Source: Elusimicrobiota bacterium
Lineage (GTDB): Bacteria; CG03; SLGR01; PWQF01
NCBI GenBank assembly: GCA_003557485.1
Contig: PWOI01000197.1
Span: forward strand, 1 to 5,106
DNA length: 5,106 nucleotides
Direction: 5' to 3'
Numbering within the stretch: position 1 is the stretch's first letter; each line of letters begins with the position of its first letter. A program made the translations under genes and the position numbers. The notes beneath the pieces were generated by a model. That model saw nothing but the letters and a program-made list of their open reading frames with translations, was not told where the DNA came from and did not search any database. Positions 2-5,106 of the stretch are shown here, in pieces.

Positions 2-232
2 GAGCAATACGATGAGTCAACGGGGGGAGGTACTGGATTTAAATTCTACGAAGTCACCCCCCACGCCCTTTATTATACCGTAGGCTGGGCCGTAAGCACC
101 TATTACGACCGTAAGCAGCATATGAAAAAAATGATAAAAAAAGCTATGAAAACAGATTTCTCGTGGAAAAGGGAATCTCTCTCATACATTGACGCCTATA
201 AAAAAGCCATTCAAATAAAAACCAGCCGCTAA
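2..232 (+). CDS. glgA: Glycogen/starch synthase, C-terminal fragment (5' end outside window)
   Basis: The last 76 codons of an open frame that enters from the left edge. The GT-B glycosyltransferase GlgA elongates alpha-1,4-glucan from ADP-glucose (or UDP-glucose) in the cytoplasm. The fragment matches the C-terminal signature of the family: a glycine-rich turn followed by TGFKFYEVTPHAL, then a helix with GWAVSTYYDR, and the terminal AMKTDFSWKRESLSYIDAY block. In known GlgA proteins the block AMxxDFSWxxxAxxYxxLY closes the Rossmann lobe. The catalytic N-terminal half is not visible, so a related family 5 glycosyltransferase cannot be strictly excluded. The TAA stop (230-232) overlaps the TAG stop of the convergent HEPN gene. 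A hairpin and T-tract directly downstream probably end this transcript. Confidence 0.82.
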   Translation, partial: EQYDESTGGGTGFKFYEVTPHALYYTVGWAVSTYYDRKQHMKKMIKKAMKTDFSWKRESLSYIDAYKKAIQIKTSR

Positions 233-264
233 TAACTAAATTCCTGCTGCGGATGGTTTTTTTT
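217..264. terminator. Bidirectional intrinsic terminator shared by glgA and the HEPN gene
   Basis: AACCAGCCGC (220-229) can pair with GCGGATGGTT (249-258) with a single mismatch (225/253) around a 19-nt loop holding both stop codons. On the plus strand the stem runs into eight T (257-264). On the minus strand the opposite arm runs into TTTTTATTT (read from 221 down to about 213). The structure can therefore serve both convergent transcripts. The loop is long, so efficiency is uncertain. Confidence 0.5.
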
Positions 265-693
265 AATAATCTCTGCAATTATATTAAGAAAATCAACAGC
301 ACTATCCAAGACATCTTCTGCTTCTTTTTTGCTGCACGGGATTTCAGGTTCATAAAGGAATTTGTGTCGGGATTTTCGCATATAATCATATATATTAATC
401 AGGGTAGAAAAATCGGGACCTAAAAAAGCATCGCAAAATCTGACAATATTCTTATGTTTGTCTTTATGTTTAGCCCGATAACCCTGACTGTTCATTAAAG
501 CAAGCCCGCAGTGAAGCATAGAATTATATGCATAAGTGAAAGCACATTCTTCATCAATATCAAGATTTCTTTTTGCAGTCTGCAGATCTTTTCCTGCCCG
601 TTTCATTAGATTATCTATTGAAACGTAATCAACAGGAGCTTTTAAAATTAAACCGGCCTTAGTCAAAGAGGAAATTGTATCTTTATAAATCAT
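229..693 (-). CDS. HEPN-domain protein (toxin-like partner of the MNT gene)
   Basis: A 154-aa all-helical protein resembling the HEPN families that sit next to minimal nucleotidyltransferases, especially the type with an R-x-x-R-[N/H]-x-x-x-Y motif (SAV_6107-like). The motif here is R106, R109, H110 and Y114 within YMRKSRHKFLY. HEPN dimers commonly act as ribonucleases using the Arg/His pair, and in HepT-MntA systems a nearby Tyr is adenylylated by the MNT partner; both roles are inferred here. A basic, His-rich loop (RAKHKDKHK, residues 73-81) precedes helix 3. I chose ATG at 693 because GGGAG lies 5 nt upstream; a TTG at 705 has no ribosome binding site. The start overlaps the end of the MNT gene by 11 nt, implying translational coupling. 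The RNase or toxin role is not proven, and some HEPN proteins are inactive. Confidence 0.8.
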   Translation of the reverse strand: MIYKDTISSLTKAGLILKAPVDYVSIDNLMKRAGKDLQTAKRNLDIDEECAFTYAYNSMLHCGLALMNSQGYRAKHKDKHKNIVRFCDAFLGPDFSTLINIYDYMRKSRHKFLYEPEIPCSKKEAEDVLDSAVDFLNIIAEIIKKNHPQQEFSY

Positions 694-1255
694 TAGGGCT
701 CCCAATTAAAAATATTTTTTTATCACGAAGGACTTCTTTTAAAAACTCCCGGGTAATTTTTTTGTTATTAAATTCTTCTTTAGTATAAATAGTAAAGTTA
801 ATTTCTCTGCCAAATTTATTTTCAAGGGGTTTAATAGCATTGATTATTTCCGAAGTCTTTGGATTCCCGATAATCATTAAATCAATATCGCTTGAAAAAG
901 TAGTTTTATCTTTTGCAAAAGAACCGTATATAAAACAGACATTAATATTTTTAATATTAATCAGACTTCTCTTAATTTTTTCTGTGATTCCTGCGGATTT
1001 CTTGATAATGCTTCTAATCTCATTATACAGAGGATGGTTTTTATTGAGCTTATAATATAATAAATTACCCGCTTTTTCTGTTAAAAAAAAGTTGTCAGAA
1101 GATAATTTTATTAATTCACGCCTGATATTCCCTGCTGAGTAACCCAGTATTCGCTCCAGCTCGCGAAGATAATATTTTTTATCAGCATTATTAAAGTAAA
1201 GGGTAAGAAGATCCTGCCGCAGTTTTGATTTAGTTATATATATATTGTTTAGCAT
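683..1255 (-). CDS. Winged-helix fused minimal nucleotidyltransferase (MNT), antitoxin/regulator-like
   Basis: A 190-aa protein with two parts. Residues about 8-75 form a winged helix-turn-helix: LRQDLLTLYF, then YYLRELERILGYSAGNIRREL, and a wing at NFFLTEKAGNLLYYKLN. Residues about 100-185 form a polymerase-beta-like MNT domain with GS (111-112) and the D123-x-D125 metal site in GSFAKDKTTFSSDIDLMIIG. The usual third carboxylate position appears to be N153 (REINFTIY). In MntA/HepT pairs the MNT neutralises the HEPN toxin by transferring AMP to it; here the fused DNA-binding domain also suggests autorepression. The start is ATG at 1255, with AGGAG (1262-1266) 6 nt upstream. An upstream in-frame TTG at 1306 lies inside the -35 box and is rejected. 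First gene of a two-gene operon with the HEPN gene. Confidence 0.85.
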   Translation of the reverse strand: MLNNIYITKSKLRQDLLTLYFNNADKKYYLRELERILGYSAGNIRRELIKLSSDNFFLTEKAGNLLYYKLNKNHPLYNEIRSIIKKSAGITEKIKRSLINIKNINVCFIYGSFAKDKTTFSSDIDLMIIGNPKTSEIINAIKPLENKFGREINFTIYTKEEFNNKKITREFLKEVLRDKKIFLIGSPNDL

Positions 1256-1277
1256 GTTGGACTCCTTTTTGACTACA

Positions 1278-1301
1278 ATTGTACTCATTAAAGAGTACAA
1301 T
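1278..1301. promoter_or_regulatory. 24-bp palindromic operator over the MNT/HEPN promoter
   Basis: The arms ATTGTACTC (1278-1286) and GAGTACAAT (1293-1301) are perfect reverse complements. The 6-bp centre ATTAAA is itself palindromic except for its outer pair. The palindrome starts on the -10 box and ends on the last base of the -35 box, so an occupied site would block RNA polymerase. The winged-helix domain of the MNT protein is the obvious candidate ligand (inference). Confidence 0.7.
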
Positions 1302-1306
1302 GTCAA
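1278..1306 (-). promoter_or_regulatory. Sigma70-type promoter of the MNT/HEPN operon
   Basis: On the minus strand, TTGACA (1301-1306) and TACAAT (1278-1283) are separated by exactly 17 bp. Transcription would start near 1271, leaving a short leader with AGGAG before the ATG at 1255. This is the best promoter match in the window. Confidence 0.75.
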
Positions 1307-2956: not shown

Positions 2957-3460
2957 CTAATTATTGTTTTCCGAAATATTTATTGTAAACTCGTGAAGTT
3001 TCAGCGCCTTCAGAATTTTTATCAAAGAAATCAACTTTATATTATAACCTCTTTCTATCCGTGATATGTCAGCCTGTGTCATCCCCGCCATATTTGCCAG
3101 ATCCTTCTGAGTAAAATTTGATTTACTCCTGGCCGTTCTGATTCGGCTGCCAATTTCTGCAAGAGTCTTACTTGGCCTGGGTTTCAAATCTATTTTTGCG
3201 CTCTCTTCGTATATAGTTTCCCACCAGGCCAGGAAATCTGCAGCGCGGGCGGTTTTTTTCCAGTATTTTCTTATTTTCGGCCAGGTGTGAATAAAAGTTT
3301 CTTTATTCACATACTCAAAAACTTCTTTAGCATTATCGCATCGGGACAATAATGTTGTCATTACCGGTATATATTTCGGATGATCCGGGTTCCTTAAAAT
3401 ATGGGGTATTTTATTTAATGTTTCCTGGTTAAAATCCCAGAAATATTTTTTAACGCTCAT
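2957..3460 (-). CDS. XRE-family HTH regulator, probable antitoxin of the AbiEii-like gene
   Basis: A 167-aa protein. Residues about 104-160 form a classic Cro/C1-type HTH: IGSRIRTARSKSNFTQKDLA, then the recognition region MTQADISRIERG (127-138). Residues 1-88 are a separate Trp/Tyr-rich helical domain (FWDFNQETL near the start, KIRKYWKK and ADFLAWW later). It resembles domains that accompany AbiEii-type nucleotidyltransferases (DUF6922-like; remembered, not searched). ATG at 3460 shares one base with the TAA stop of the upstream nucleotidyltransferase (TAATG junction), so the two are translationally coupled. As the likely antitoxin it should bind the promoter repeats at 4170-4211 and/or the toxin itself (inference). 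The antitoxin is second in the operon, unlike canonical abiEi-abiEii. Confidence 0.82.
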   Translation of the reverse strand: MSVKKYFWDFNQETLNKIPHILRNPDHPKYIPVMTTLLSRCDNAKEVFEYVNKETFIHTWPKIRKYWKKTARAADFLAWWETIYEESAKIDLKPRPSKTLAEIGSRIRTARSKSNFTQKDLANMAGMTQADISRIERGYNIKLISLIKILKALKLHEFTINISENNN

Positions 3461-4164
3461 TATATTTGTTCTCTTATAAACATCTTTATTTCATCGTCTA
3501 AATACTTAATCATTCTGGATGAATCAAATTTTTTGTCATATATATCCAAATCTAAGATGTTGATTTTTAAATCCTGCCTGGAATATGACCTGTACCATGT
3601 TACCATTCCTCTTTGCTGCTGGCCGGGCATTTTTTGTAAAAATTTATGCAGTGGACTGATCTTTAAAGATAAACAATACAGGTCATAAACATCTTTTTCG
3701 GCATTTCTCCAGGTGGGTATTTGTCTGCCTATTTCGTTCTTTGCCGAAAATGTGCCGGCTACAGCCATTATTTTCTGATAGTATATATGCTCTATATCAT
3801 ATACGGGAATATTATTTATTTTTTTTATTAAAGGCTCACTGAAAAACACATCTTCAATAAAATCCAGTTTGAAAAATAACCCGGGTTTAATCTCGGTAAA
3901 ATAAAACATAACCCTGGCCCTGTTTTCTGTCTTAAACTCGTTATCAAAATCAATTTTCAATTTTGTTTTGCGTTCAAAATTATTAACCAGTTTTTCAATA
4001 TCAGCACTGTTATAGTCAACGCTGAAAAAATCTAAATCGCCTGAAAATCTATGATGTAAATAACATAACTCTAAGGCCGTTCCCCCTGCAAGGGCGAAAC
4101 GGCAATTTTCCCGCGCGAACTCCTCCAGTATTAAATTTTGAATTTTTCTTATATCTTTTTGCAT
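3460..4164 (-). CDS. AbiEii/AbiGii-family nucleotidyltransferase, probable toxin
   Basis: A 234-aa protein with the family's signature motifs in order: AGGTALEL (26-33), HHRFSGDLDFF (37-47) with the D43-x-D45 metal-binding pair, FKLDFI (98-103) supplying a third carboxylate D101, K131 in IYYQKIMAV, and R153 with the KDVYDLYCL helix (157-165). Characterised relatives such as AbiEii and MenT proteins are polymerase-beta-fold toxins that add nucleotides to tRNA acceptor ends or use GTP, halting growth. Length is close to the compact members of the family. All expected catalytic positions are present, so it is probably active. ATG at 4164 has AAGGG (4169-4173) 4 nt upstream. It is the first gene of the operon, followed without a gap by the XRE gene. 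It is AT-rich compared with the plus-strand genes. Confidence 0.87.
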   Translation of the reverse strand: MQKDIRKIQNLILEEFARENCRFALAGGTALELCYLHHRFSGDLDFFSVDYNSADIEKLVNNFERKTKLKIDFDNEFKTENRARVMFYFTEIKPGLFFKLDFIEDVFFSEPLIKKINNIPVYDIEHIYYQKIMAVAGTFSAKNEIGRQIPTWRNAEKDVYDLYCLSLKISPLHKFLQKMPGQQQRGMVTWYRSYSRQDLKINILDLDIYDKKFDSSRMIKYLDDEIKMFIREQI

Positions 4165-4169
4165 ATAAC

Positions 4170-4211
4170 CCTTATGTGCTTAAAAACATATTCCTTATGT
4201 GCTTAAACATA
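4170..4211. promoter_or_regulatory. Two direct repeats, putative operator of the AbiEii/XRE operon
   Basis: CCTTATGTGCTTAAA occurs at 4170-4184 and again at 4193-4207, both followed by CATA (with AA inserted in the first copy). The spacing is 23 bp, about two helical turns. On the minus strand the distal copy covers the predicted start of transcription and touches the -10 box. Each unit (TTAAGCACATAA) is an imperfect palindrome, as expected for an XRE dimer site. Confidence 0.6.
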
Positions 4212-4237
4212 TAATAATATAATTGTTTTTTTTTCAA
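4209..4237 (-). promoter_or_regulatory. Promoter of the AbiEii/XRE operon
   Basis: On the minus strand, TTGAAA (4232-4237) and TTATAT (4209-4214) are separated by 17 bp. Initiation near 4202 would lie within the distal direct repeat. The surrounding AT-rich DNA allows alternative -10 registers. Confidence 0.55.
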
Positions 4238-4360
4238 AATATATTAATCGATTTACAAGTAATAAGGGATGGTTATATAATAAAAGGATGCCGTTTTGTT
4301 AATGATAAAGAATATGCAGAATTTGAACAAAAATTAAAAAGATGGAAAAAGCTCTTATAG
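4223..4360 (+). pseudogene. Short coding-like frame without a good start, possible gene remnant
   Basis: A frame open for about 46 codons ends at TAG 4358-4360. Its second half reads like protein (IIKGCRFVNDKEYAEF, then EQKLKRWKKLL), with an amphipathic charged helix. No ATG or GTG exists in frame; the only classical candidate is TTG at 4223, which lacks a ribosome binding site and sits in the AbiEii promoter. It may be the degraded 3' end of a lost gene, or a spurious frame in a short non-coding transcript. I do not recognise a family. Confidence 0.25.
4252..4281 (+). promoter_or_regulatory. Candidate plus-strand promoter, divergent from the AbiEii promoter
   Basis: TTTACA (4252-4257) and the consensus TATAAT (4276-4281) are separated by 18 bp. 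Transcription would start near 4288 and meet the hairpin at 4346-4366 about 80 nt later. AT-rich surroundings make chance matches likely. Confidence 0.35.
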
Positions 4361-4367
4361 CTTTTTT
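4346..4367. terminator. A/T-stem hairpin with flanking A and T tracts
   Basis: AAAAAGCT (4346-4353) and AGCTTTTT (4359-4366) form an 8-bp stem around CTTAT. The T-rich arm continues with one more T on the plus strand, and the A-rich arm gives TTTTT on the minus strand. It lies just beyond the stop of the 68-aa minus-strand gene and could end that transcript as well as a short plus-strand transcript. Low GC content makes it a weak terminator. Confidence 0.35.
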
Positions 4368-4405
4368 AGTTCCGTCATTATTCTTAATATTAATTTTTAA
4401 AGAGA

Positions 4406-4612
4406 TTAACTGCCACCCAGATTCGCATAAACATATCCCAGTTTGTAAGCAAGGTAAACCTTCTCCAGGGTATTCAGATCCTCACTCTCGGAAATGTCTC
4501 GTATCACAGCAGCCTTCTCATTTCCATCCTCCAGGCATTTTTCAATAATTTTAACTATTTCTTTATCTTTCTTTTTTGTGATTCCAAGTAATTCTCTATA
4601 ATTGTTGGACAT
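4406..4612 (-). CDS. Small 68-aa protein of unknown function
   Basis: I do not recognise a family. The start is supported by GAGG (4617-4620) 4 nt before ATG at 4612. The sequence is charged and mostly helical: KKKDKEIVKIIEKCLEDGNE (13-32), then AAVIRDISESEDLNTLEKVY (34-53) and a more hydrophobic end YLAYKLGYVYANLGGS (53-68) with heptad-like Leu/Tyr spacing. There is no signal peptide and one Cys (26). The periodic hydrophobic pattern and the ribosome binding site argue that it is real. A longer frame overlapping its first 58 bases lacks a convincing start. It lies upstream of, and in the same direction as, the AbiEii operon, but a hairpin (4346-4367) and the separate AbiEii promoter suggest independent transcription. 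Confidence 0.55.
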   Translation of the reverse strand: MSNNYRELLGITKKKDKEIVKIIEKCLEDGNEKAAVIRDISESEDLNTLEKVYLAYKLGYVYANLGGS

Positions 4613-4727
4613 GGTTCCTCGAATAAAAATTTATTCTTATTGTCTCCCAATTTCCTTAAACTGCAACTCTCTAAAACTAAAAGTTGATAGACCACCTCCC
4701 TTGTTTTAAGTTTTGTCGGGAAACAAT

Positions 4728-4753
4728 AAAAAAACCCGCACACGTGTGCGGGC
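4728..4753 (-). terminator. Strong intrinsic terminator (minus strand)
   Basis: CCCGCAC and GTGCGGG (within 4735-4752) form a perfect GC-rich stem around ACGT, the whole 18 nt being palindromic. On the minus strand it is followed directly by seven T (4734-4728). The opposite strand has A instead of T after the stem, so the direction is unambiguous. It ends something transcribed leftward from beyond 4753, best explained by the putative structured RNA at 4728-4838. Confidence 0.85.
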
Positions 4754-4838
4754 TTGAGGCAAGTTTTACTATATAATACTATCCCGACTTTTTAGCACAT
4801 TTATATAGCGGAGCAATATGCCTCAAATCACCGCTATA
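4728..4838 (-). ncRNA. Putative small structured RNA with a pseudoknot
   Basis: On the minus strand the unit would start near 4838 and end at the terminator, about 110 nt. Its first bases TATAGCGG (4838-4831) pair perfectly with CCGCTATA (4811-4804). The 19-nt loop of that hairpin contains TTGAGGCA (4826-4819), the exact reverse complement of TGCCTCAA (4761-4754) that abuts the terminator stem, giving an H-type pseudoknot topology. A TTGACA box lies at the right place upstream. No convincing minus-strand reading frame fills the unit. I do not recognise a known RNA family. The inverted repeats could instead act on the opposite strand. Confidence 0.45.
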
Positions 4839-4922
4839 ACAATTAATAATACAGAAACAGTTAGTTTGTCAAATTTTCCGATAAATATTAAAGAGATTAA
4901 CGAATATAGGATATTCATATAA
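4818..4922 (+). CDS. Possible 34-aa small ORF with a sequestered start
   Basis: ATG at 4818 has GGAG (4810-4813) 4 nt upstream and opens a 34-codon frame beginning MPQITAITINNTETVSL and ending EYRIFI. A plus-strand TATAAT (4772-4777) lies upstream without a good -35 box. The GG of the ribosome binding site is in the stem TATAGCGG/CCGCTATA, and the TG of the start codon lies in an inverted-repeat arm, so translation would be structurally controlled if this strand is transcribed. It resembles the start of a larger protein that has been cut short, but no continuation is visible. It competes with the minus-strand RNA interpretation. Confidence 0.25.
   Translation: MPQITAITINNTETVSLSNFPINIKEINEYRIFI
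4843..4872 (-). promoter_or_regulatory. Candidate promoter of the structured RNA
   Basis: On the minus strand, a perfect TTGACA (4867-4872) is followed by TATTAT (4846-4851, 15-bp spacer) or TATTAA (4843-4848, 18-bp spacer). Either would start transcription within a few bases of 4838, the first base of the TATAGCGG stem. Confidence 0.4.
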
Positions 4923-4958
4923 ATAAAGCGTACTATATTATCGGTATATGAAAGATGT

Positions 4959-5105
4959 TTAAATTAGGGAGTTACTGTTAGTTTGTATCCTGCGTGGGCA
5001 GCCAGCCCCTTCGGGGCGAACCTTTTTAAAATCATAAGAGCCTACTCCCTCCACCCTCCTTAAATCCGCCTGCTCGCCGTTCCTCGCACTCTCGCGCTCG
5101 GCTCC
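4959..5105 (-). CDS. Possible 3' end of a minus-strand gene entering from the right edge
   Basis: A frame open from the window edge for 48 codons ends with TAA at 4959-4961. Readable parts include ARNGEQADLRRVEGVG and DFKKVRPEGAGC, then PRRIQTNSNSLI. Other frames of this GC-rich segment are also open for 24 codons or more, so openness alone is weak evidence. It may be a non-coding repeat rather than a gene. The terminator at 4728-4753 is too far downstream to support it directly. Confidence 0.2.
   Translation of the reverse strand, partial: GAERESARNGEQADLRRVEGVGSYDFKKVRPEGAGCPRRIQTNSNSLI
4966..5050. repeat. Nested inverted repeats near the right edge
   Basis: AGGGAGT (4966-4972) and ACTCCCT (5044-5050) are 7-nt inverted repeats. 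They enclose a GC-only 5-bp hairpin GCCCC-TTC-GGGGC (5005-5017). Five T at 5023-5027 follow the inner hairpin after GAACC on the plus strand, so it could be a poor terminator. From 5051 to 5106 the plus strand is a pyrimidine-rich, CTCG-rich stretch very unlike the AT-rich DNA before it. Confidence 0.35.
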
Positions 5106-5106
5106 G

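Follow-up and report, generated by a model that had tools for sequence, protein, structure and literature searches.

The window, i.e. the whole 5,106-nt stretch of DNA analysed, is the entire contig C152 of a 2.07-Mb draft genome, and it belongs to the lineage, since the alpha/beta hydrolase encoded on it shares 51% identity with the sister-genome counterpart. On the minus strand, a structured element lies between a promoter and an ORF of 68 aa, and its neighbours, a HEPN/nucleotidyltransferase pair, an HTH protein and an AbiEii-type protein, are toxin-antitoxin-like. The HEPN and MNT-type nucleotidyltransferase genes (229-1306, minus strand) correspond to the PADLOC candidate PDC-M05A/B (E 2e-50 and 4e-13) and resemble a type VII toxin-antitoxin pair, and the HTH protein with the AbiEii-type nucleotidyltransferase (2957-4164, minus strand) resembles an AbiE toxin-antitoxin pair in which the partner carries its HTH domain C-terminally.

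A preliminary description of the element had listed a perfect TTGACA box, an 8-bp stem, a loop octamer with a perfect downstream complement, a terminator stem and a run of seven T, all of which were found in place (Table 1). A possible −10 box that suits the predicted start was absent from the promoter scan because the scan was limited to spacers of 16-18 nt. Three perfect helices of at least 8 bp occur in the interval, while 887 of 1000 dinucleotide shuffles had none and only 1/1000 reached three or more, bearing out that the pairings exceed chance; the RNA fold of the interval had z = −3.3, and an 8-bp complement to the loop region was matched by 1.5% of shuffles of the downstream segment. 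The plus-strand frame 4818-4922 had no protein family match.

Table 1. Positions of the features of the element and its surroundings in the window
Feature	Position	Strand	Basis or remark
Direct repeat copy 2, TTAAAGAGATTAAC core	4882-4901		just upstream of the promoter
−35 box TTGACA	4871-4866	minus	sequence
Possible −10 box TATTAT	4850-4845	minus	sequence; 15-nt spacer to TTGACA
Expected transcription start	~4838	minus	first base of P1
P1 5′ strand UAUAGCGG (TATAGCGG)	4838-4831	minus	sequence, covariation in relatives; GCGG 4831-4834 also belongs to the candidate antiterminator
UGAUUU, conserved SAM-II loop L1	4830-4825	minus	Rfam SAM_alpha alignment; slightly overlaps the candidate antiterminator
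Loop octamer TTGAGGCA (UUGAGGCA)	4826-4819	minus	perfect 8-bp complement of TGCCTCAA
P2b 5′ strand GGC of SAM-II pseudoknot	4822-4820	minus	pairs with GUC 4786-4788; columns 21-59, 22-58, 23-57
P2a 5′ strand UUGC	4816-4813	minus	pairs with GC(U)AA 4792-4796
U4812	4812	minus	able to pair with G4798; equivalent of the covarying pair beside P2a
P1 3′ strand CCGCUAUA (CCGCTATA)	4811-4804	minus	sequence, covariation in relatives
GCUAAAAAGUC, conserved SAM-II 3′ core with P2a and P2b 3′ strands	4796-4786	minus	Rfam and model alignments
UUAUAUAG	4776-4769	minus	pairs with CUAUAUAA 4801-4808 in the ligand-free fold, breaking P1
TGCCTCAA (UGCCUCAA), candidate antiterminator 3′ strand	4761-4754	minus	folds, shuffles; followed by a single G (4753), then the terminator stem
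CCGC of terminator 5′ arm	4751-4748	minus	in transcripts with 3′ ends at 4747-4738, paired with P1 GCGG in the ligand-free minimum-energy fold
Intrinsic terminator stem CCCGCACAC/GTGTGCGGG (3′ arm also GUGUGCGGG)	4752-4735	minus	sequence scan
U7 tract of terminator (T7 in DNA)	4734-4728	minus	sequence
68-aa ORF	4612-4406	minus	first plausible gene past the terminator, GAGG before it
Direct repeat copy 1, TTAAAGAGATTAAC core	4391-4410		at the end of the 68-aa ORF

Relation to the SAM-II class

The minus-strand RNA very probably carries an aptamer of the SAM-II riboswitch class. In the Rfam search, SAM_alpha (RF00521) was its best aptamer match (4844-4772; 22.6 bits, E = 0.0027 over 211 nt and all families), and the element tops the SAM_alpha matches of its own genome and of all 16 phylum genomes. 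The window misses the Rfam gathering cut-offs (22.6 versus 36 bits for RF00521 and 15.4 versus 44 bits for RF01726), which are curation thresholds and no defining molecular feature.

Feature by feature, the agreement with the consensus is close. An 8-bp P1 closes a loop that begins with UGAUUU, the invariance of which in alignments A1 and A4 was imposed by the search pattern, and P2a and P2b are both present, the latter with one G-U pair (GGC/GUC, versus GGC/GCC or GGC/GCU in relatives). The covarying SAM-II pair between the base after UUGC and a base before GCUAAA exists as the wobble U4812-G4798; in this column pair (31-47), A-U occurs 9 times, G-C 6 times and U-G once, in the window itself. 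One base, not two, separates UUGC from the P1 3′ strand, 1 nt fewer than in the Gemmatimonadota relatives. A methionine/SAM metabolism gene, which is typical but not obligatory downstream of SAM-II (e.g. locus L078, see below), is absent, and the next ORF is the orphan of 68 aa. Against a SAM-II switch stand the score under the Rfam gathering cut-off, the missing nucleotide and the G-U pair in P2b, as well as the orphan ORF, the partly circular model score, the computed stability of the terminator and the lack of a relative with a like expression platform (see below).

Of the proposed promoter-pseudoknot-terminator unit, the minus-strand structured regulatory RNA stands, together with its promoter, a pseudoknot and the terminator, and a ligand-sensing element, one of the options named for it, fits the SAM-II class; it is not undescribed, as the element is of an already-known class (Rfam RF00521/RF01726), and what is new is this member.

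Published SAM-II RNAs usually begin a few nucleotides before P1, carry terminators after P2 and follow an OFF-switch logic (PMC1273637), and the metZ SAM-II of S. meliloti yields an sRNA (RZ RNA) of ~100 nt that was attributed to termination (PMC9373788). The predicted anatomy of the window, with a start near P1 and a terminator after P2, agrees with this: like the SAM-II RNAs of A. tumefaciens metA and S. meliloti metZ (RF00521 SAM_alpha/RF01726), it combines P1 with a P2 pseudoknot, has UGAUUU, UUGC and GCUAAA, would start at the edge of P1, and would give a product of ~100 nt through an intrinsic terminator past P2. It differs from them in its lower G+C, the 1-nt shorter gap between UUGC and P1, the orphan ORF downstream, a host from a small uncultured phylum, and a putative antiterminator built from the P1 5′ strand plus loop.

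Other classes were considered as well. The SAM/SAH riboswitch is likewise an H-type pseudoknot sensing SAM. SAM-V, described as an H-type pseudoknot sensing SAM (PMC6061858), has the same likeness to the window, and the Rfam search of the interval returned neither. The matches to Leu_leader (RF00512) and to other leaders or sRNAs have a GC-rich terminator and a U tract in common with the window; Leu/Phe/Trp leader identities were rejected because these matches come from the terminator, and for Leu_leader neither a leader peptide nor a leucine gene was seen. A type III toxin-antitoxin RNA (ToxI/CptI/TenpI) was rejected too, since the element is not tandemly repeated within 4150-5106 and there is no toxin, the downstream 68-aa ORF having no Pfam match.

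Relatives of the element in other genomes

A DNA pattern derived from the window, GGTGATTTGAGGC-N-TTGC-N-GCTAAA, matched 32 places among 84,980 species genomes (257 Gb), mostly in Gemmatimonadota and Methylobacterium, with one each in Latescibacterota and Deltaproteobacteria. The Rfam SAM_alpha cut-off was passed by 11 of the 18 loci scanned, at 44-58 bits, and the tested ORFs behind the Gemmatimonadota elements encode the cobalamin-type methionine synthase metH (L057, L063, L070) or a Cys/Met PLP enzyme (L075). Clustering ahead of methionine genes would not be expected of a chance pattern; many of the 32 are genuine SAM-II elements preceding metH or a Cys/Met PLP enzyme. Those in Methylobacterium look SAM-II-like, but the two tested fall under the Rfam cut-off, and they were given no weight.

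A covariance model built from eleven of the pattern loci, with the window left out, scored the window at 43.1 bits (E 4e-9; runner-up within the window, 8.2 bits), a value that is partly circular, since GGTGATTTGAGGC, TTGC and GCTAAA had been set by the pattern. Outside these fixed parts, the window agrees with the relatives in P1, the A-rich linker, AAGUC and the spacing, and across the 16 phylum genomes it was the sole match under E 0.1. In the model alignment, 92.6% of the SAM-II structure cells were paired, versus 23-46% when the alignment was slid. The loop GAUUUGAGGC(A/G)UAUUGC and the segment GCUAAAAAG(C/U)C are nearly identical between the window and the Gemmatimonadota metH and Cys/Met PLP elements (L057-L088), and P1 departs by compensating changes, e.g. 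U-A, C-G or G-C at columns 10-35 (C-G in the window), so that the covariation sought by the preliminary description in P1 was found. The second 8-bp pairing (4754-4761/4819-4826) is not conserved in the relatives: the terminators and spacers of L057-L088, unlike those of the window, lack a TGCCTCAA-like antiterminator strand, a simple search method detected no common antiterminator among them, and no relative was found to share the expression platform of the window.

Two side observations concern the relatives themselves. In a deltaproteobacterial MAG, a SAM-II over the Rfam cut-off (L078, 542-617, minus strand; 52.8 bits) lies ahead of an ORF (at least 153 aa) that matched nothing in Pfam, and here too no methionine gene obviously follows. 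Five Gemmatimonadota leaders (L060, L062, L070, L087, L088) are SAM-II-like yet under the Rfam gathering score, and their downstream ORFs, as far as read, start like methionine synthase, with Pfam confirmation for L070; for Gemmatimonadota, the Rfam gathering score seems to be set too high.

Closer to the window, a search of 98 related genomes for close DNA homologues gave nothing but a chance match of 30 nt, and plasmids and phages gave none. No second SAM-II and no SAM-I was seen elsewhere in the genome; among the 15 other phylum genomes searched no convincing SAM-II was found, the window being the one case among 16, and sub-threshold matches in the sister genomes were at chance level; no SAM-I was found in the phylum genomes. 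Viral contigs did not contain the exact loop, and 13 matches to a looser pattern in them were rejected, being by eye ordinary coding sequence, none with SAM-II pairing.

A candidate switching mechanism and its alternatives

When growing transcripts were folded computationally in ligand-free form, P1 had a probability of 0.96-0.99 until UGCCUCAA was transcribed. At 4754 the fold flipped to UUGAGGCA/UGCCUCAA plus CUAUAUAA/UUAUAUAG, with probabilities of 0.90 for the alternative helix and 0.03 for P1, and in transcripts ending at 4747-4738, which have no terminator 3′ arm yet, GCGG of P1 was also paired with CCGC in the 5′ arm of the terminator. This pairing is mutually exclusive with P1 and P2, and its computed energy lead over a bound-like P1 scaffold was 14.2 kcal/mol, versus a mean of 6.4 (sd 1.5) in linker shuffles, 2/1000 of which matched it. 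Given the SAM-II class, the second 8-bp match is probably best read as an antiterminator; TTGAGGCA/TGCCTCAA fits this role, since the relatives do not conserve it and its formation competes with that of P1 and P2. The complete terminator (computed −35.9) outweighs the antiterminator (−29.5) at equilibrium, and therefore control would be kinetic, partial or leaky.

Taken together, we propose, with a probability of about 0.72, that 4840-4728 on the minus strand forms a SAM-II riboswitch whose expression platform works by transcription termination; the sequence elements, the consensus match, the mutual exclusivity and the computed energies are observed here, and SAM binding, switching and the identity of the regulated gene are inferred. 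The RNA would start near 4838, and while the polymerase moves between ~4783, where the aptamer is complete, and ~4757, the aptamer could adopt P1 together with the P2 pseudoknot (UUGC/GCUAA, GGC/GUC) and bind the methyl donor S-adenosylmethionine. With SAM bound, P1 and the loop would be locked, UGCCUCAA and the terminator 5′ arm would be free, and the terminator would form, so giving an RNA of ~110 nt ending near 4728, i.e. an OFF switch when SAM is abundant. Without SAM, the P1 5′ strand and loop (GCGG-UGAU-UUGAGGCA) would pair with UGCCUCAA-GC-CCGC (UGCCUCAAGCCCGC) and mask the terminator 5′ arm, and the polymerase would read on into the 68-aa ORF.

The preliminary description had instead let P1 and an 8-bp P2 (TTGAGGCA/TGCCTCAA) coexist in one pseudoknot, which would make the RNA either a new fold or a variant of SAM-II in which an insertion separates the 3′ strands of P2a and P2b. 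Each pairing is indeed perfect, and the loops of 4, 7 and 42 nt do not obviously forbid the arrangement; their joint formation, however, is not evident from the sequence, and SAM-II uses P2a and P2b for its pseudoknot, of which P2b (GGC/GUC) stands at its normal place and needs no insertion. Moreover, L061, L075, L076 and L086 have the identical loop GAGGCATATTGC with no TGCCTC match downstream, and therefore the second 8-bp pairing lies outside the conserved pseudoknot; UUGA of the octamer also lies beside or in the L1 strand that forms a triplex with P2b in the crystal structure (PMC5352136). We consider such a fold highly improbable. An always-on terminator behind a SAM-II aptamer, with a terminated sRNA that acts in trans or is SAM-stabilised and no switching role for TTGAGGCA/TGCCTCAA, is a less remote but still unlikely reading: the computed probability of the full-length terminator is the same in free and bound scaffolds, the ORF behind the riboswitch has no known relatives, and in S. 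meliloti the terminator after the metA SAM-II is not predicted to be SAM-responsive and yields sRNAs (PMC9373788). Against it, the alternative helix with its terminator-arm extension is far stronger than in the shuffles and is placed as an antiterminator would be. Between these two in plausibility, and quite improbable, comes a decayed, nonfunctional SAM-II relic left after loss or displacement of a methionine gene, for which speak the score under the Rfam cut-off, the orphan ORF, the flanking direct repeat present only twice in the genome and the sister genomes without SAM-II; a decaying RNA would, however, be expected to lose pairs, and here the conserved positions, the 8-bp P1, the intact terminator and the near-consensus promoter are all kept.

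Just beyond the terminator, UCCCGAC (~4709-4715, minus strand) perfectly complements GUCGGGA (4782-4788) just after the aptamer core over 7 bp, and in read-through RNA folded to 4710, P1 was dominant again (0.90).

Genomic setting and significance

The promoter, riboswitch, terminator and 68-aa ORF form a unit of ~490 bp flanked by a direct repeat of 20 nt (90% identical), the core of which, TTAAAGAGATTAAC, has only two copies in the 2.07-Mb genome; it looks as if the unit had been inserted or duplicated like a cassette. No relatives of the ORF were found in viral contigs, plasmids, phylum genomes, Pfam or NCBIfam, an RraB identity was rejected (E 0.0067, far under the family cut-off), and it has no known link to methionine; metH of this genome lies on a different contig, C56. 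What the SAM-II of the window controls can be named with low confidence only. It is conceivable, if doubtful, that a SAM-II was recruited for an unknown small protein or a SAM-stabilised sRNA in a repeat-bounded unit beside toxin-antitoxin/defence-type genes, which, if true, would place SAM sensing on a seemingly mobile unit and outside the metabolism of methionine.

The SAM-II of the window is of an ordinary kind; what sets it apart is the uncultured lineage and its place next to an unknown small gene, where a methionine gene would be typical. With it, a small uncultured phylum gains a sub-threshold SAM-II, whose close relatives upstream of metH are common in Gemmatimonadota, and the SAM-II class, on whose expression platform few tests exist, gains a clear antiterminator candidate; the orphan ORF would be an addition to the SAM regulon, if truly SAM-regulated.

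Upstream of the riboswitch promoter, a 13-nt direct repeat, AC(A/T)GTTAGTTTGT, occurs at 4857-4869 and 4974-4986 (117 bp spacing), and the contig end (4980-5106) carries a GCCCCTTCGGGGC hairpin together with a stretch rich in G+C that differs from the remaining window and has only one copy in the genome.
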